This document shows, piece by piece, positions 28,001 to 41,341 of a stretch of DNA of 64,000 nt. This DNA is from Desulfobulbaceae bacterium. GTDB lineage: Bacteria; Desulfobacterota; Desulfobulbia; Desulfobulbales; Desulfurivibrionaceae. The stretch lies in assembly GCA_004332195.1 (NCBI GenBank), contig SJBG01000002.1:124001-188000 (forward strand). Reading direction: 5' to 3'. Position numbers and translations under genes: made by a program. How positions within the stretch are numbered: the stretch's first letter is position 1; each line of letters starts with the position of its first letter. The notes below the pieces were generated by a model. The model did no database searches. It was not told where the DNA came from and was given only the letters and a program-made list of their open reading frames with translations.

Positions 28001-29764
28001 ATGGCCCTTGATCCAACCAAACACGCGGACTGGGAAATCGCCGAAGAGGCGGAAAGCCGCATGAAAACCGTTTATGAACTGGGCGAAAAGCTGGGCCTGG
28101 AGAAAGAGGAATTGCTGCCCCATGGCCACTATGTGGCCAAGCTCGACTATCGCAAAATTCTTGATCGGCTCAAGGACAAGCCCGACGGCAAATATATTGA
28201 TGTCACCGCCATCACGCCCACTCCGTTAGGCGAAGGCAAATCAACCTGTGTCATGGGTCTGGTTCAGGGGTTGGGTAAGCGGAACAAATCGGCGATCGGC
28301 GCCATCCGTCAACCATCCGGCGGCCCGACCATGAATATCAAGGGTTCGGCAGCCGGCGGCGGTTTAGCCCAGTGTCTCCCGCTGACCCCTTTCTCTTTAG
28401 GTCTCACCGGCGATATCAACGCCATCATGAACGCTCATAATCTCGGGATGGTGGCCCTGACCTCGCGGATGCAGCATGAGACCAACTACACCGACGAACA
28501 GTTGGCCAAGCGGGACTTAAAGCGACTGGACATTCACCCCAACAAGGTGGAGTTCGGCTGGATCATCGATTTTTGCGCGCAAGCCTTGCGCAATATCACC
28601 GTCGGGCTGGGCGGCAAAATGGATGGGTTGACCATGCAAAGTCATTTTGCCATTGCGGTAAGCTCCGAGATTATGGCGATTCTCTCGGTAGCTCGCGACT
28701 TAAAAGATATGCGTGAGCGCATCGGTAAAATCGTAGTGGCGTACGACCGGCAGGATCGGCCCATCACCACCACCGATCTCGATGTGGCCGGGGCCATGAC
28801 CGCCTGGATGGTGGAGGCCCTTAATCCCAACCTGCTGCAAACCATAGAAGGTCAACCGGTGGTGGTCCACGCCGGGCCTTTTGCCAATATCGCCATTGGT
28901 CAGAGCTCGGTTATCGCTGATCGGGTCGCCCTTAAGCTGGCCGACTACAACGTCACCGAGAGCGGTTTCGGGGCCGATATCGGCTTTGAAAAATTCTGGA
29001 ATCTCAAGTGTCGTTATTCCAACTTAAAACCCCACTGTGCGGTGGTGGTGGCCACGATCCGGGCGCTCAAATGCCACGGCGGCGCCCCGCTGCCGGTCCC
29101 GGGTCGGCCGATGCCGGCCGAATACGGTAAAGAAAACGTTGGCTGGGTGGAAGAGGGTACCCAAAACCTGCTCCATCACATCGAGACGGTCAAAAAAGCC
29201 GGGATCAACCCGGTGGTCTGTATCAACGCCTTTTACAGCGACACCGACAACGAGATCAAAGCTGTGCGCCGGCTCTGTGAATCGGCTGGGGCCCGGGTGG
29301 CGGTCTCCAGACATTGGCAGTACGGTGGCGATGGCGCCCTGGAGTTTGCCGACGCGGTGGTGGATGCCTGTGAGGAAGAAAATGATTTTCGCTTCCTCTA
29401 TGACCTTGACACTCCCCTTTCCCGGCGGATTGAACTGATCGCCACCGAAGTTTACGGCGCCGACGGAGTCAGCTACTCCCCTGCAGCCCAAGCCAAACTG
29501 CAACGAATGGAGGCCGACCCGGAAATAAAAGAGATGGGAACCTGTATGGTTAAGAGCCATCTTTCCCTCTCTCACGATCCGTCACTCAAGGGTGTGCCCA
29601 AAGGTTGGACCCTGCCGGTGCGGGACATTCTCTCCTACAAGGGCGCTGGTTTCGTGGTTCCGGTGGCCGGGGCCATCAGCCTGATGCCTGGCACGGCCTC
29701 CGATCCCGCTTATCGTCGAATCGACGTCGATGTTGCAACCGGCCGGGTCAAAGGCGTGTTCTAG
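28001..29764 (+). CDS. fhs: Formate-tetrahydrofolate ligase (Fhs)
   Basis: 587 residues, about 30 longer than typical. It activates formate to 10-formyl-THF with ATP, the entry step of the methyl branch of the Wood-Ljungdahl pathway. The nucleotide-binding [10 protein letters not shown], the [19 protein letters not shown] segment, and LTGDINAI are highly conserved. AAGAGGAA lies before the ATG. It sits between thyX and folD; no formate dehydrogenase is in the window, so the formate source is unknown. Confidence 0.97.
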
Positions 29765-29935: not shown

Positions 29936-30823
29936 ATGGGCGCCAAAATTATCAGCGGAACCGAGGTCGCCAGAGCCATCCGGGCGGAGTTGAAACAGGA
30001 AGTCGCCGAGCTTCAAGCAAAGCACGGGGTGACGCCGGGTCTGGTTACCATTTTAGTGGGTGATGATCCCGCCTCCCAGTCCTATGTTGCCGCCAAGAAT
30101 AAAACCGCCAAAGAGCTGGGAGTTTACTCCGAACAGATTACTCTGCCCGTCGACACTTCTGAAGCTGAATTGCTTCAGTTGGTAGAAAAGTGTAACCGGA
30201 ATGCCAAAATCAACGGCATTTTGGTTCAACTCCCCCTACCCAAGCACATCAATGAGGCCAAGGTGCTTTATGCTATCGATCCCAACAAGGACGTGGATGG
30301 TTTTCACCCAGTCAATGTGGGCAAGATGGTCTTGGGCCAACAGTGTTTTTTGCCCTGCACCCCCCACGGAATTCTCGAACTGCTCAAGCGCAGCGGGATC
30401 AACACCACCGGGGCTGAGGTGGTGATCGTCGGCCGCAGCAACATCGTCGGCAAGCCCATCGCCAATTTGATGTTGCAAAAACGGGAGGCGGGCAACGCCA
30501 CCATCACCTTATGTCACACCCGAACCAGGGATCTTGCCGCCCATACCCGGCGGGCCGATATCATCATCGCCGCCGCCGGGACGCCTAATATGCTTAGCGC
30601 CGAGATGGTCAAGGACGGAGTGGTAGTTATTGATGTTGGAGTCAACCGTATAGGGACGAGCGCTTCGGGTAAGGCGATTTTAGCCGGTGATGTCGATTTT
30701 ACGGCGGTCAAGGAAAAGGCCTCCTGGATCACCCCGGTGCCTGGCGGGGTGGGGCCGATGACCATCACCATGCTGATGAAAAATACCGTTTGGGCGGCGG
30801 CTCGGGCCGCCGGAATTAGCTGA
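29936..30823 (+). CDS. folD: Bifunctional methylene-THF dehydrogenase/cyclohydrolase (FolD)
   Basis: 295 residues. It converts 10-formyl-THF via methenyl-THF to methylene-THF (or the reverse). Visible are VGDDPASQSYVAAKNK with the catalytic lysine, VQLPLPKHI, DVDGFHPVNVGKM, VIVGRSNIVGKP in the NAD(P) site, and TPVPGGVGPMT. It takes the product of Fhs and feeds the MetF domain encoded 22 bases downstream, in line with the order of the pathway. Confidence 0.97.
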   Translation: MGAKIISGTEVARAIRAELKQEVAELQAKHGVTPGLVTILVGDDPASQSYVAAKNKTAKELGVYSEQITLPVDTSEAELLQLVEKCNRNAKINGILVQLPLPKHINEAKVLYAIDPNKDVDGFHPVNVGKMVLGQQCFLPCTPHGILELLKRSGINTTGAEVVIVGRSNIVGKPIANLMLQKREAGNATITLCHTRTRDLAAHTRRADIIIAAAGTPNMLSAEMVKDGVVVIDVGVNRIGTSASGKAILAGDVDFTAVKEKASWITPVPGGVGPMTITMLMKNTVWAAARAAGIS

Positions 30824-30845
30824 AAAACAGCAATAAAGGAACGAC

Positions 30846-33782
30846 ATGGAAACAGTAACAAAATCCGTAACAAAATCTGCCAGTCGCCTGGAAAAAGTAC
30901 TCCGCTCCGGGGACTTTGCCGTCACCGGCGAGTTGGTGCCACCCAAGAGCGCCAACCCCGAGGTGGTGCGGGAAAAGGCGCGATTGCTCAGGGGGCTGGT
31001 CGATGCGGTCAATATTACTGATTGCCAAACCGCCATTGTCCGAATGTCCAGCATTGGGGCCGGGTTGTTGACCCAAGCCGAAGGGGTGGAGCCGATCATT
31101 CAGTTGACCTGCCGGGATCGTAACCGTATCGCTATGCAGAGCGATATCCTGGGGGCCGCCGCCTTCGGGTTGAAAAACCTGCTCTGCCTCACCGGCGATC
31201 ACCAAAAATTTGGCAATCATCCGGGGGCCAAGGGCGTTTTCGATATGGACTCCATCCAGCTATTAGGGGTGATGAAAAACCTGCGGGATGAGAAAAAGTT
31301 TCAGTGTGGGGAAGTGATCAAGGATCATGAGCCCCGTTTTTTTTTGGGTTGTGCCGCCAATCCCTTTGCCGGGCCAAACGAGCCTGCCCGAGCCGCCCGT
31401 CTGGCCAAAAAGGTCGCCAGCGGGGCCGATTTTGTCCAAACCCAGATCATTTATAACGTGGAGCGTTTCGCCAAATTCATGGCGGCGGTCCGTGAGTTGG
31501 GCCTGGACCAGCAAGTCTTTATCCTGGCCGGGGTGACCCCTCCCCGCTCCCTGGGGATGGCCCGCTACATGAAAAACTTTGTCCCCGGTCTCGATGTTAC
31601 TGATGAGGTCCTCAAAAGAATGAGTGGAGCCAAAGACAAAGAGGAAGAGGGGATCAAGATTTGTGTTGAGATCATCAACCAGTGCCGTGAAATCAAGGGG
31701 GTGGCCGGCGTTCATATTATGGCTATTGAGTGGGAAGCGGCGGTGGCGGAAATTGTCAAGCGCGCCGGCTTGGCCGACCGGCCTGGGTTGGAACCTGATT
31801 TAGAGGCGGAAAAAGTTCCGATTCCGGCCCCGATAATTGAACGACTTACGGTTGGACAGCCTGCGGCGGTGGACAAGCCTGTTACCGCGACCCTTGAGGT
31901 TGCAAAGACCATCGATTTTCAATCTGCGGCTGAGGCTGCTGAAACTGCTGAGACCACCGAGGCTGCGCAATTTGCTCAAGCCGGCGAGGCCGCGGCCGCT
32001 GAGTTGGCCGCCGCTCGCCGGGAAGCAGCAAAAATCATTGCCGCCGCTCGGGCCGAAGCGGCGGCGATTGGTGTCCAAGCTGCGGTGCCGGTACCGGCTT
32101 CGGTACCGGCTTCGGTTCCGGCTCAGGCCCCGACCGTGGCGGTGGCCGAGATTACCGACAGCGCTCAGATTCATGCTCAATCAGCGGCGGATGCGGCGGA
32201 TGCGGGAGAAGACGAAATGAACGAAAGAGAACGTCAAATGGCTTTGAATTCGGTGCGTCGTGGACTTGCGGCCCTCAAGAAGACCTTTGGTTTGTCGGAT
32301 GATCAGTTCGACGCCATGGCTCAATTTGCCGGAGCTGAGGCGATCCTCAAACGTGAACCGCTCATCGGGACCGGGACCTCTGTAGCGGTTATCCCGACCC
32401 AACCTGAAGCCTTGACGGTTCCCGTCTCCGCCGAGCCAACTCCTGCCGCGGCCAGCCCAGATCCCGTGGTCTCAAAGGCCGCGAAGGCCCAAACGCCCGG
32501 GGAAGCTCAAAAGGCCGCCGAAATTAAGGCCCAGGAGGAAGCCAAGGCCCAGGAGGAAACTAAGGCTCAGATGGAAGTCCAGGCTCAAGCGGAAGCCAAA
32601 GCCGCGGCAGCGGTCAGAAAAAAAGCGGCGGCCCAGGCCCCGGCCGCCAAAGAAAGCAAAAAACTAGCCGATGCCCAAGATCAGGCCCCGGCTGCGACCA
32701 AGGTGGCTGAGAAGACCGCCAAAGTTGTCGAAGTCCCGGCTCAACCGGAGGTCAAAACAACAACATCCGTCGCTCCGGTCGCCGTTCTTGCGGGGGGTGA
32801 GCTGGCCGGTGAAAAGATCTCACTTGCCAAACGGGCCAGCAAAATTTCCACCACCGATTACATCCAAAACTATTCCGGGGCCATTTGTGAGGTAAGCTTG
32901 GGTAACGCTCCTGATGGTGTCACCGTTGGCGGAATCAACGCTCTGCCTTTTCATCTCTTTGAAGGTGAAATGAAGCACCAGCCCCTGATCGCCATGGATG
33001 TTTTGGATGTATTGCCCGAGGAGTGGCCCACCTCACTGAGTCGCCATTTTGCCGAAGTGATGAATAATGCCGTAACTTGGGCTCAAAAGTGCGTGCAAGA
33101 TTACCAGGCTGAGGCTATCTGCCTCTCGCTGGTCAGCACCGACCCCAACGGGCTGAACCGCTCGGCTGCTGACGCGGCCAAGATCGCCGCCGCAGTGGTC
33201 AAGGCCATCGAGGTACCGATCATTATCTGGGGTTGCGGCAACAACGAAAAAGATACCGAAACCTTGCGGGAAATCACCGCCATCATCGGTGATCGGAAGG
33301 TCTGCCTGGCCCCGCTGGAGGACAAGAACTACCGTTCTCTGGGCGCCACCGCCATGGCCTTTCAGCATCCTATGGTGGCCTCTTCTCCCATCGATGTTAA
33401 TTTGGCCAAGCAGCTTAATATTCTGCTGGAAAATCTTGGGGTGCCCTTAAACACCATCTTGATTGATCCTTCCGTTGGCGCTCTTGGCTACGGGATTGAG
33501 TATACCTATTCGGTAATGGAGCGAATTCGCCTGGCCGCCCTGACCCAGGAAGATGTCAAGCTCCAGGTGCCATTTATCTGCAACTTGGGCCGGGAGGTTT
33601 GGAAAACCAAGGAATGCCGTTTGCCCAGCGATGAAATGTTGGGCGATCAGGAAACCCGCGGGGTGCTGATGGAAGCCATTACCGCCACCTGCATGTTGAT
33701 GGCTGGCGGTGAGGTCTTGATTATGCGTCACCCTCGGGCTATTGCCCTGACCAAAACTTTGATTAAGGGCCTGATGGCCTGA
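30846..33782 (+). CDS. Fused methylene-THF reductase and corrinoid protein small subunit (MetF-AcsD)
   Basis: One uninterrupted frame of 978 residues. Residues 1 to about 310 are a MetF-type reductase (GELVPPKSANPE, LLCLTGDH, AGVTPPRSLGMARYM). Residues 311-455 and about 515-650 are Ala/Glu/Gln/Lys-rich linkers. A small helical segment (RGLAALKKTFGLSDDQFDAM) lies between them. Residues from about 652 to 978 are AcsD/CdhD, the small subunit of the corrinoid iron-sulfur protein (VGGINALPFHLFEGEM, IDPSVGALGYGIEYTYSVME). The domains make methyl-THF and carry the methyl group to acetyl-CoA synthase. An in-frame ATG at 32217 (Met458) preceded by GGGAG could allow separate translation of the AcsD half. 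The fusion is unusual in my knowledge of the families. Confidence 0.9.
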   Translation: METVTKSVTKSASRLEKVLRSGDFAVTGELVPPKSANPEVVREKARLLRGLVDAVNITDCQTAIVRMSSIGAGLLTQAEGVEPIIQLTCRDRNRIAMQSDILGAAAFGLKNLLCLTGDHQKFGNHPGAKGVFDMDSIQLLGVMKNLRDEKKFQCGEVIKDHEPRFFLGCAANPFAGPNEPARAARLAKKVASGADFVQTQIIYNVERFAKFMAAVRELGLDQQVFILAGVTPPRSLGMARYMKNFVPGLDVTDEVLKRMSGAKDKEEEGIKICVEIINQCREIKGVAGVHIMAIEWEAAVAEIVKRAGLADRPGLEPDLEAEKVPIPAPIIERLTVGQPAAVDKPVTATLEVAKTIDFQSAAEAAETAETTEAAQFAQAGEAAAAELAAARREAAKIIAAARAEAAAIGVQAAVPVPASVPASVPAQAPTVAVAEITDSAQIHAQSAADAADAGEDEMNERERQMALNSVRRGLAALKKTFGLSDDQFDAMAQFAGAEAILKREPLIGTGTSVAVIPTQPEALTVPVSAEPTPAAASPDPVVSKAAKAQTPGEAQKAAEIKAQEEAKAQEETKAQMEVQAQAEAKAAAAVRKKAAAQAPAAKESKKLADAQDQAPAATKVAEKTAKVVEVPAQPEVKTTTSVAPVAVLAGGELAGEKISLAKRASKISTTDYIQNYSGAICEVSLGNAPDGVTVGGINALPFHLFEGEMKHQPLIAMDVLDVLPEEWPTSLSRHFAEVMNNAVTWAQKCVQDYQAEAICLSLVSTDPNGLNRSAADAAKIAAAVVKAIEVPIIIWGCGNNEKDTETLREITAIIGDRKVCLAPLEDKNYRSLGATAMAFQHPMVASSPIDVNLAKQLNILLENLGVPLNTILIDPSVGALGYGIEYTYSVMERIRLAALTQEDVKLQVPFICNLGREVWKTKECRLPSDEMLGDQETRGVLMEAITATCMLMAGGEVLIMRHPRAIALTKTLIKGLMA

Positions 33783-37511: not shown

Positions 37512-40500
37512 ATGACCAAGGCAATGGAAAAAAAGGAGGGCGCGGTGCTTGTGGTTGGCGGCGGCGTGGCCGGAGTGCAGGCCGCGATGGATCTGACCGG
37601 GCTGGGCTACTACGTTTACCTGGTGGAAAAAGCTCCGACCGTCGGCGGGGCTATGGCCATGTTGGACAAGACCTTTCCCACCAATGACTGTTCACTCTGA
37701 ATACTTGCGCCTATTTTGGTCGAGGCCGGTCGGTCTCCCAACATCGAGCTTCTGAGTAACACCGATTTCCTTGCCCTCGACGGCAAGCCGGGGGCATTTA
37801 CGGCCAGGGTGCGGGTGCGCCCTCGTTATATTATCCCTGAAAAATGCACGGCTTGCGGGATGTGTGCCCAGTACTGTCCCCGGCACCTGGTGGATGGTTA
37901 CAACGAGGGCCTGGCCCTGACCCGGCCGATTCATATTGATTATCCCCAGGCAGTGCCGGCCAGTTATTTTATTGATCCTAAGGCATGTATGTACCTCAAA
38001 AACGGGACCTGCATGATTTGCCTTTCGGTCTGTCAGACCAGGGCTATCAATTTTGACCAGCAAGCTGAGGAACGTGAACTGCACGTCGGGGCGGTGGTTA
38101 TGGCTCCCGGTTTTGGTCGGATCCCCGATTCGGCACTTGAAAAATACAGTTACGGCGCGCACCCCGATGTGGTCACCAGCCTGGAGTTTGAACGGATGCT
38201 CTGTGCCTCCGGGCCCTTTGAGGGAAAACTGTTGCGGCTTTCCGATCGCCGGCACCCCAAAAGTCTCGCCTTTATTCAGTGCGTGGGCTCTCGGGATCTT
38301 GGTTGCGATAACGGGTACTGCTCATCGGTCTGCTGCATGTACGCGATCAAAGAGGCGCTGGTGGCCAAGGAGCATGAACCGGAGCTCGATATCACCATCT
38401 ATTACATTGATATGCGGACCCAAGGCAAAGGCTTTGATGCCGCCCGAATCCGAGCGGAGGATAAGGGCATCAAGTTTGTCCGGGCCCGGGTTGCCGAGGT
38501 CATGCCCTGGGGGCAACAGCTCAAACTGGCCTACTCAACCCTGGATGGCGGCCATTTTTTTAAGGCCTACGATATGGTGGTTCTGGCGGTGGGTCTTGAT
38601 GCCCCTGCCGATGCGGCCAAGCTGGCCCAGTCGGCGGGATTTGCGCTTAACCATTATGATTTTTGTCAGACCACAACCTTCAGCCCGCTGCAAAGCAGTC
38701 GGGCAGGGGTGGTGGTGGCCGGGGCCTTCCAGGGGCCCAAGGATATTCCGGAAAGTGTGACTCAATCAAGTGCGGTGGCCGGCCTGGTCTCGGCCTTGAC
38801 CAAGCAGGAACGAGGCAAGGGCTACGTAATCAAGACCTATCCTCAAGAGCAGCAGGTGAGCGATGATGAGGAGGTCCGAATCGGGGTTTTCGTTTGCCAC
38901 TGCGGGGTCAACATCGCCGGAGTCGTGGATGTGCCCAGTGTTGATCAGTATGTGGAGGGTATGGAGGGGGTGGTTTTCCACGCTCAAAGTTTATATAGCT
39001 GCTCCCAGGATGCCCAGGAGGTCTTGAAACAGAAGATCAAGGAGCACAGACTCAATCGGGTGGTCATTGCCGCCTGCTCCCCCCGAACCCATGAGCCGCT
39101 CTTTCAGGAAACCCTCAAGGATGCCGGCCTAAATCGTTGTCTTTTCGAGATGGTTAACATTCGCGACCAATGTTCCTGGGTGCATGCCAACGAGCCGCAA
39201 GCGGCCACTTTCAAGGCCAAAGACCTGGTGCGGATGGGGATTGCCAAAGCGCGTCATATCAAGCCGCTGCCCGAACAGACGGTATCGGTGATCGACAAGG
39301 CTTTGGTGATCGGCGGCGGAATTGCCGGATTGACCGCAGCTCTCAGTCTGGCTGATCAGGGTTTTCTCACCTCTCTGGTGGAGAAGCAACCGCACCTCGG
39401 TGGTCATTTGCATGACGCCCGTTACACCTTGCGGGGCGATGATACCGCTAAAATCCTTAAAAATTTGATTAACCAGGTGCGAAAACACCAGAATATCGAA
39501 GTTTACTTGAGCAGTGAACTGGGGCAGATCACCGGTTATGTCGGAAATTTTTCCTCGCAGATCAAGGGAAAAAAAACTGATGATCAGACGACCATCGTTG
39601 AGCACGGGGTGATTGTGATTGCCACCGGCGGGCGGGAGCATCGCCCGCCCAGGGTGTTGGATGCGCCGATTAAGTATTCCGATCGGGTCTTGACCCAGAA
39701 CGATCTGGAACGTCGCCTGGCTGGTCGAGCCAGGAACCGGGCGCCGGGTTTGGTGGTGATGATTCAATGCGCTGGCAGTCGGGGGGATGATTTGAGTTAT
39801 TGCAGCAAGCAGTGCTGCAACGAAGCGGTGAAAAACGCGCTGAAAATTAAAGAGATAAACCCGGCGGCTCAGGTGGTGGTTCTTTATCGCGATCTTCGCA
39901 CCTACGGTTACGCCGAGGATGCTTATCGTGAGGCCCGAGAAAAAGGGGTGCTCTTCATTCCTTACAGCCTTGACCCCAAACCCAAGCTCAATGCCGAAGG
40001 CAAAGCCCCCGAGGTTGCCTTTTACGATCCAATTCTCCGCGAGGAGGTGACCTTGGCCCCGGATCTGCTGGTCTTAAGCACCGGGATCGTCCCGGAGGAC
40101 ACTGAGGAGTTGAGCAAGCTGCTCAAGGTCCCGATTACCTCCGACAAGTTTTTCCTTGAAGCCCATGTTAAACTGCGGCCGGTGGAGTTGCCGGTTGCCG
40201 GAGTTTATGTATGTGGCCTGGCGCATTCACCGCAACCGGTGGAGGAGATCATCGTCCAGGCCCAAGCGGCGGCAGCCAAGGCGGCGATCCCGATGGTCAA
40301 GGGTCATGTCTTGGTGGAGCCAACGGTCTCCACCGTTGATCAGCCCAGTTGCATCGGCTGCGGGATTTGCGAGGCACTCTGCCCTTATCAGGCCATCCGT
40401 ATGATTAAGGATGAAAAAAACAAGCGCAAGGCGGAGACCATTACCGCATCCTGCAAGGGCTGTGGCATCTGTGCCTCCCACTGCCCGGTGTTCGCTATTT

Positions 40501-40562
40501 CCATGGGCGGCTTTACCGATGAACAGATCAAAGCCCAAATCAAGGCTTTTGGCGCAAGCTGA
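37512..40562 (+). CDS. hdrA: Selenocysteine-containing HdrA-type electron-bifurcating flavoprotein
   Basis: 1016 residues when the in-frame UGA at 37698-37700 is read as selenocysteine 63. The reading continues in the same frame: [10 protein letters not shown], Sec, [17 protein letters not shown], where HdrA proteins have a conserved cysteine at the Sec position. A SECIS-like hairpin follows. Order seen: FAD motif [10 protein letters not shown], a [4Fe-4S] site [12 protein letters not shown] (from Cys112), [18 protein letters not shown], a [12 protein letters not shown] segment near residue 460, a second FAD motif [10 protein letters not shown] near 600, and two C-terminal ferredoxin clusters ([24 protein letters not shown]). 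The second half lacks the redox Cys/Sec loop. HdrA bifurcates electrons with MvhD and other partners. AAGAGGAA precedes the ATG. Confidence 0.93.
37716..37741 (+). promoter_or_regulatory. SECIS-like hairpin of hdrA
   Basis: Beginning 15 bases after the UGA: lower stem TTGG (37716-37719) with CCAA (37738-37741), a two-base bulge TC, upper stem GAGGCC (37722-37727) with GGTCTC (37732-37737, one G-T pair), and a four-base loop GGTC containing the GU that SelB recognises in bacterial SECIS elements. The loop starts 28 bases after the UGA, within the usual range. It lies inside the coding frame, as expected in bacteria. Confidence 0.85.
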
Positions 40563-40720: not shown

Positions 40721-41341
40721 ATGACGAGTGAAGAGTTTAACCCACGCATCTTGGGGTTTCTCTGCAACTGGTGCTGCTACGCGGCGGCCGACGGGGCCGG
40801 GGCCTCGCGCTACCAGTATCCGCCCAATCTGCGGACTATCCGCATCATGTGCACTGGCAGGCTTGACCCGGCCTTTGTCTTCCGGGCTTTTGTCGAAGGG
40901 GCCGACGGTATTTTCACCGGTGGCTGACAACTTGGCGAGTGTCATTACCAGGTTGGTAATTACGATGCCATGGGTGCCAGTTTTTTAATTAAAAAAATCT
41001 TGGTCGAGATCGGTTTGCAACCGGAGCGTTTTGGTCTGCAATGGGCTTCCGCCGCTGAGGCTCCTTATTTTGTTCGCTTGATCACTGAGTTTACCACTGA
41101 GATGAAGGAGCTCGGCCCTATCGGGATCAGCGAAGGTCTAAGCCCGGAGGAATTGCAAAAACGCCTGCAGGCAGCGCTGAAGTTGGTGGAGGGTCGCAAA
41201 TTACGGATGAGTTTCGGCAACGCCACCAAAGCAATGCGCAAGGATGGGATTTTCACCAAGGAACATATCGACGAAGTTTTCGCCGCCAAAATGGAAAAAT
41301 CCATCTCCACCAGCGACCTTGTCCCATCACCAGCCTCGTGA
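40721..41341 (+). CDS. mvhD: Selenocysteine-containing MvhD-type electron-transfer protein
   Basis: 206 residues with the in-frame UGA at 40925-40927 read as selenocysteine 69. The sequence around it is GIFTGG, Sec, QLGECHYQVGNYDAM; MvhD/FlpD proteins have GG-Cys-H-x-G-D-Cys-H-Y at this place. Other conserved parts are GFLCNWCCYAAADGAG and RIMCTGRLDPAFV. MvhD is the small [2Fe-2S] subunit that passes electrons from a hydrogenase or other donor into HdrA. It follows hdrA by 158 bases with its own AAGGAG. Without Sec the product would be a 68-residue stub. The C-terminus after about residue 185 is variable. Confidence 0.93.
40941..40963 (+). promoter_or_regulatory. SECIS-like hairpin of mvhD
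   Basis: Stem ATTACC (40944-40949) with GGTAAT (40955-40960) closes a five-base loop AGGTT containing GU. A C/T mismatch and a further GT/AC pair extend it to 40941-40963. The loop begins 23 bases after the UGA, inside the normal spacing for bacterial SECIS. It differs in sequence from the hdrA hairpin but has the same layout. Confidence 0.82.

Follow-up and report, generated by a model that had tools for sequence, protein, structure and literature searches.

The enzymes of the Wood-Ljungdahl pathway may act independently of one another or within a physical assembly, a matter that is not known to be settled. In this pathway MetF (methylene-THF reductase) makes methyl-THF, AcsE, which stands between MetF and the corrinoid iron-sulfur protein (CFeSP), moves the methyl group onto the corrinoid of the AcsC-AcsD pair, and AcsB makes acetyl-CoA. 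The window analysed here, a stretch of 64,000 nucleotides from a Desulfobulbaceae bacterium, carries a gene in which metF and acsD share one reading frame, and the question raised by this locus is whether the gene makes one tethered protein or two products. The fusion joins the maker of methyl-THF with a later methyl carrier in sulfur disproportionators, cable bacteria, and hot-spring autotrophs, and it offers a natural, widely conserved test system for the question of free enzymes versus assembly. The gene and its parts are as follows.

30846..33782, + strand: metF-acsD fusion gene, 978 aa, 103.7 kDa, with an SD-like (Shine-Dalgarno-like) AAAGGA just 5' of the ATG
30870..31784, + strand: MetF domain, residues 9-313, matched by PF02219 and, in Foldseek, by Thermus MTHFR
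31785..32216, + strand: linker A, residues 314-457, predicted in the long product only
31959..32078, + strand: Ala-rich helix within linker A, residues 372-411 (AlphaFold)
32204..32209, + strand: putative internal Shine-Dalgarno site GGGAGA, 7 nt 5' of an internal ATG and including the GGA codon of Gly454
32217..32354, + strand: helical island, residues 458-503, a two-helix hairpin
32217..33782, + strand: inferred second product, island-AcsD, 521 aa, 55.4 kDa, predicted from the internal ATG at codon 458
32355..32822, + strand: linker B, residues 504-659, holding an Ala/Glu/Lys helix at 553-593 (composition, AlphaFold)
32823..33779, + strand: AcsD domain (CFeSP small subunit), residues 660-978, matched by PF03599, the NCBIfam AcsD models, and 2h9a_B/4djd_D

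The initial annotation had described 978 codons in a single open frame, comprising a MetF domain at the N-terminus, a complete AcsD domain at the C-terminus, and a linker of ~340 residues with a small helical island, and all of these features were recovered. The frame begins with the ATG at 30846, ends with the stop codon at 33780-33782, and contains no internal stop. The PF02219 MTHFR profile matches residues 14-308 over its full length with 131 bits, above the cut-off, and Foldseek returned 8eac, 1v93, and 1b5t as structural matches of the domain. Residues E29, D118, and Q198/Q200, which we take to be the catalytic Glu, Asp, and Gln residues from the residue roles in E. coli MetF, are invariant in an alignment of 53 fusions, and E29 is aligned to Glu18 of Thermus MTHFR. 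By fold, profile, and catalytic residues the domain is an MTHFR, and it is predicted to reduce methylene-THF.

The PF03599 CdhD profile matches residues 682-923 with 139 bits, and residues 674-977 align with residues 9-308 of the 310-residue solved CFeSP small subunit 2h9a_B. The AcsD part is a complete barrel domain, with acsB and acsC adjacent, and it is predicted to bind AcsC and the corrinoid. Solved bacterial AcsD subunits (2h9a_B, 4djd_D, and 9fzy_E) show 38-42% identity and a TM-score to the target of 0.88-0.94; they adjoin AcsB/AcsC likewise, however, they consist of about 310-323 residues without MetF or a long N-terminal extension. The suggestion that AcsD is a redox module was not upheld, as in CFeSP the Fe-S cluster is carried by AcsC and the corrinoid sits between AcsC and AcsD.

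The linker spans about residues 314-659 and is rich in Ala, Glu, Val, Pro, Lys, and Gln, with Ala at 95 of 343 residues. The AlphaFold model, built with 53 homologues, features two confident barrels and a linker with pLDDT <50 over much of its length. The island is predicted as a hairpin of residues 460-480 and 485-501 with a pLDDT of ~75-79, and residues 372-411 and 553-593 form the further predicted helices.

Intact MetF-AcsD fusions were found in ~85 distinct homologues from Desulfobulbales and related classes (a list of 87 fusions holds a few genomes fetched twice). The same architecture open in so many genes is neither chance nor a sequencing error, and an assembly or frameshift error in the window is thereby ruled out. 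Six draft loci (L045, L064, L075, L086, L091, and L098) feature a broken fusion, with the breaks at scattered places. The fusion is present in the same genus, the same family, and nearly all sampled families of the order, including cable bacteria; AcsD is absent from one of these sampled families, f11. In a phylum sample of 198 genomes AcsD was found in 131; 16 have the two domains within a single frame, and 1 has a split version. The very long AcsD frames of G220 and G115 were excluded as fusions since they overlap the adjacent AcsB frame, and where other families have AcsD frames of 500-550 residues, the extra length is a C-terminal tail of AcsD and no MetF fusion.

As the initial annotation had supposed, the fusion is lineage-specific and belongs to one clade of the phylum. 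In the AcsD tree all fused rows fall in this clade with an SH-aLRT of 100, and the sole unfused row inside it is G147. The AcsD and MetF trees require two changes each, one fusion and a split in G147, which rules out independent repeated fusion; the trees of both domains fit a single fusion event followed by one later split. The metF and acsD genes of L107 and L109 (Desulfobacterales) are adjacent and separate, which shows a possible route to the fusion from neighbours.

The initial annotation knew of no description of the architecture, however, Melton et al. 2016 already listed a "mthfr/acsD ... fusion" in Desulfurivibrio alkaliphilus AHT2, of the same genus, and compared the AHT2 gene order with that of delta proteobacterium MLMS-1 (PMC5016858). 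The AHT2 fusion shares genus, domain order, and gene cluster with the window; in that report it stands in the abbreviation list only, and the linker, island, internal start, distribution, and function are not discussed (PMC5016858). MTHFR and AcsD are in one frame in Desulfurivibrio at L003/L162 as well as in the window, and the MetF part of the G002/L162 homologue is 83% identical to that of the window. A Desulfobulbus vent epibiont carries the fusion in its genome too (L088); the later paper describing that genome lists metF and does not mention the fusion (PMC7117923). No functional study of the fusion was found in the literature searched. What seems new here is a probable second ribosome start within the linker of a known fusion.

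The putative start is codon 458, an ATG (32217-32219) right at the head of the island and preceded by GGGAGA. A codon test was done on 60 homologous genes having the GE..M motif. The codon of the SD Gly is GGA in 60/60 genes, whereas among the other Gly codons of these genes GGA accounts for only 14%; the runner-up GGA bias among 47 conserved Gly columns is 37%. The codon preceding the SD Gly always ends in a purine, compared with 34% of Ala codons elsewhere. The mean predicted pairing with the 16S tail is -7.43 kcal/mol, and synonymously recoded sequences reach -5.40 kcal/mol (z -7.9, taken over replicate means); the significance comes from pooling related genes, the median per-gene p being only ~0.14. 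Because the homologues are related, pooled statistics overstate independence, and this is addressed by same-gene controls that use other Gly and Met columns and positions. Among 16 conserved Met columns the internal SD is the strongest, and it is as strong as that of the gene's own start (-6.9).

Of 832 positions along the gene, codons 455-459 show the lowest GC3 deviation (z about -4), resembling a true start, and GC3 nears zero at several codons between -10 and +6 of the internal ATG. Other conserved Met residues with SD-like upstream sequence (134 and 960) show no GC3 dip. Few stretches of the gene have RNA as weakly structured as that near codon 458, where the local folding z is +2.0. No internal promoter was found just upstream of the codon 458 start. 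A second GC3 low, at codons 517-533 (about 32394-32444, in linker B), features no obvious start site and counts against the reading of codon 458 as a start. The protein sequence does not call for the GGA, GC3, and RNA features, which are marks of a translation start; the SD and the start codon at 458 are under nucleotide-level selection.

It is unlikely that the gene makes one product only, a 978-residue protein that tethers MetF to CFeSP while the internal SD-ATG is idle. In favour of a single product, the frame is open everywhere, some fused families are without the internal site, and the SD-like motif doubles as code for a conserved peptide, AGExEM. A constraint on this peptide, however, leaves unexplained the use of GGA without exception and the purine-only third bases before Gly, as well as the GC3 collapse and the exchange of ATG for GTG with the start kept. 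The single-chain fusion of the initial annotation is accordingly real as a fused frame, but the conserved in-frame start at codon 458 suggests that the long chain is probably not its sole product.

Several families inform on how widely the site is kept. Deeper families retain the internal start as ATG (L095 and L148) or GTG (L085, L179, and L180), with an SD of -9.3 to -11.9 and low GC3. At L143/L145 the SD is strong and GC3 shows no clear drop, and L066-type families, Thermosulfurimonas, L104/L146/L147, and L125/L128 gave no internal site at the island. The internal start, as read from these sequences, is common but not universal, since several families are without it. EEAKxM sites that precede the island in deeper families were not supported as starts, as they have an SD of ~-11.8 yet no GC3 signal; this case shows that strong SD-like sequence can arise in a Glu-rich coiled coil without initiation.

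The unfused row of the trees, G147, is a complete genome in which a single in-frame TAA after MetF (L141:7401-7403, minus strand) parts MetF from AcsD. The TAA is followed immediately by GGGGGAAAG and an ATG, an SD and start codon at the head of an island-like N-terminal helical segment of AcsD. G147 thus reads as a natural two-gene version, a reversal of the fusion, with AcsD predicted to be made separately. This gene start at the head of AcsD speaks against a further explanation, in which the SD-like site in the linker causes no initiation and either slows ribosomes so that MetF folds before AcsD or promotes frameshifting. An SD-like site by a domain boundary could in general pause ribosomes, however, pausing does not account for the constant distance at which a start codon, be it ATG or GTG, is retained, or for low GC3 that runs past the ATG as in true starts. 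Programmed frameshifting was rejected, no slippery heptamer being seen by eye after the site in the window sequence. Of all the explanations weighed here, this one is given the least credence.

Selection on the linker bears on whether the long form is made. Linker A (about residues 313-457) contains 0 stops in 7232 codons summed over 87 genes, and its median dN/dS in close pairs is ~0.29 versus 0.03-0.05 in MetF, the island (~0.05), and AcsD. Linker A is under protein-level selection, and as it would be read only in the long form, its lack of stops and its dN/dS argue for a long form that is both produced and of use to the cell. The linker is long and variable (88-449 residues, median 260, in the list of 87) and predicted to be disordered over much of its length, which would suit a protease that cuts the fused chain into MetF and AcsD, the fusion merely securing a 1:1 ratio. 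Against cleavage, no conserved cleavage motif was noticed, and linker A and the island are under purifying selection; it is a quite improbable explanation, ranked only slightly ahead of pausing.

The gene therefore reads best as a source of two proteins: it probably yields MetF-AcsD (104 kDa) and free island-AcsD (55 kDa), following a single ancestral fusion that kept the internal start. In the proposed mechanism metF and acsD would have been joined once, in the ancestor of Desulfobulbales and related classes, with the ribosome start heading the AcsD part retained. Initiation at codon 1 would give MetF-linker-island-linker-AcsD, initiation at codon 458 would give island-AcsD alone, and the ratio of long to short form would be set by the two ribosome sites. 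Either form of AcsD would pair with AcsC to form CFeSP, so that some CFeSP would hold the methylene-THF reductase on a long, flexible tether, the rest being free of it. The MetF domain would make methyl-THF with electrons supplied via separately encoded MetV and Hdr/MvhD-type proteins, the separately encoded AcsE would transfer the methyl group to the CFeSP corrinoid, and CFeSP would pass it to AcsB. We infer that both products occur in cells, that they co-assemble with AcsC, and that the gain comes from proximity or a set stoichiometry. Methyl channelling of the kind raised in the initial annotation may occur, local methyl supply or enzyme assembly is plausible, and the benefit of the fusion may be the simpler one of coordinated amounts. 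If the internal start is real, standard annotation misses a protein throughout the order, and experiments on the fusion that rely on protein size or on knockouts are liable to misreading.

Internal in-frame starts that give a short form are known from cheA. The cas8/cas11 system features the same arrangement (PMC11899642). In these systems, as proposed here, an SD and start codon within a longer frame give the C-terminal domain alone; unlike in cas8/cas11 and cheA, the start in the window belongs to the linker of a fused metabolic protein, where it would part two pathway enzymes.

The fusion lies in a Wood-Ljungdahl cluster, between FolD and AcsB, with the following neighbours.

28001..29764, + strand: formate-THF ligase (fhs), PF01268
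29936..30823, + strand: FolD, PF00763/PF02882
33898..36102, + strand: AcsB, acetyl-CoA synthase, NF040764 with 1072 bits
36131..37483, + strand: AcsC, CFeSP large subunit, NF003195 with 576 bits, intact
37512..40562, + strand: HdrA, with an in-frame TGA at 37698-37700, likely selenocysteine
40721..41341, + strand: MvhD/FlpD, with an in-frame TGA at 40925-40927, likely selenocysteine

The TGA codons of HdrA and MvhD each stand at a canonical Cys position and are common to relatives, and a SelB gene above the curated cut-off is present in the genome. AcsE is a separate gene of 297 aa on another contig (G000:C18), identified by its sequence together with a Pterin_bind match, the weaker of two. 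A third contig carries MetV, a DUF5981 protein (G000:C16:63572, 118 bits), with MvhD-like and HdrC-like genes next to it. The genome, which also contains a second MetF-like gene (663 codons, only 30% identical), therefore encodes a predicted MetV partner, as expected for the MetVF type. The MetVF-type reductases of acetogens (Moorella, Sporomusa, and Clostridium ljungdahlii) likewise feature a short MetF with MetV and Hdr/MvhD genes, however, acetogen MetF is a separate gene, whereas in the window MetF is fused to AcsD and MetV is on another contig. A purified MetVF preparation from Sporomusa ovata contained AcsC and AcsD (PMC9430772), a hint that MetVF and CFeSP can associate.

Relatives (L035 and L162) carry a CODH gene between FolD and MetF-AcsD; the window cluster has lost it from that place (30823-30846). 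The genome has one apparent CODH, at another place on this contig (G000:C12:39634-41319); it is divergent, with 55.6% identity to that of the relatives. The genome is 1.66 Mb and rated 100% complete; the two best-completed genomes among the other sampled members of the genus measure 2.8 and 3.1 Mb.

A parallel arrangement was found in 7 genomes of family f67, where AcsD is fused C-terminally to CODH through a linker in frames of 1108-1150 codons (L232-L238, in G264, G259, G265, G263, G262, G261, and G149). The linker is similarly Ala/Pro-rich and features a helical island right after an in-frame ATG, with an SD that ranges from weak to strong. A further AcsD-CODH fusion, in G079 (L239, family f37), has no clear island start. 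From these sequences it appears that other enzymes of the Wood-Ljungdahl pathway have been attached to AcsD repeatedly. A broader reading is possible but rather doubtful: tethered and free forms of the CFeSP subunit, in a ratio set via the conserved internal ribosome site, would mix into a MetF-CFeSP assembly that hands over the methyl group locally, and AcsD would have been joined to a pathway neighbour via a start-bearing linker at least two times separately (MetF-AcsD and AcsD-CODH). Additionally, two deep-branching MetF-AcsD fusions (L104 and L147) show, by eye, TPR-like repeats that are apparently inserted in the linker.
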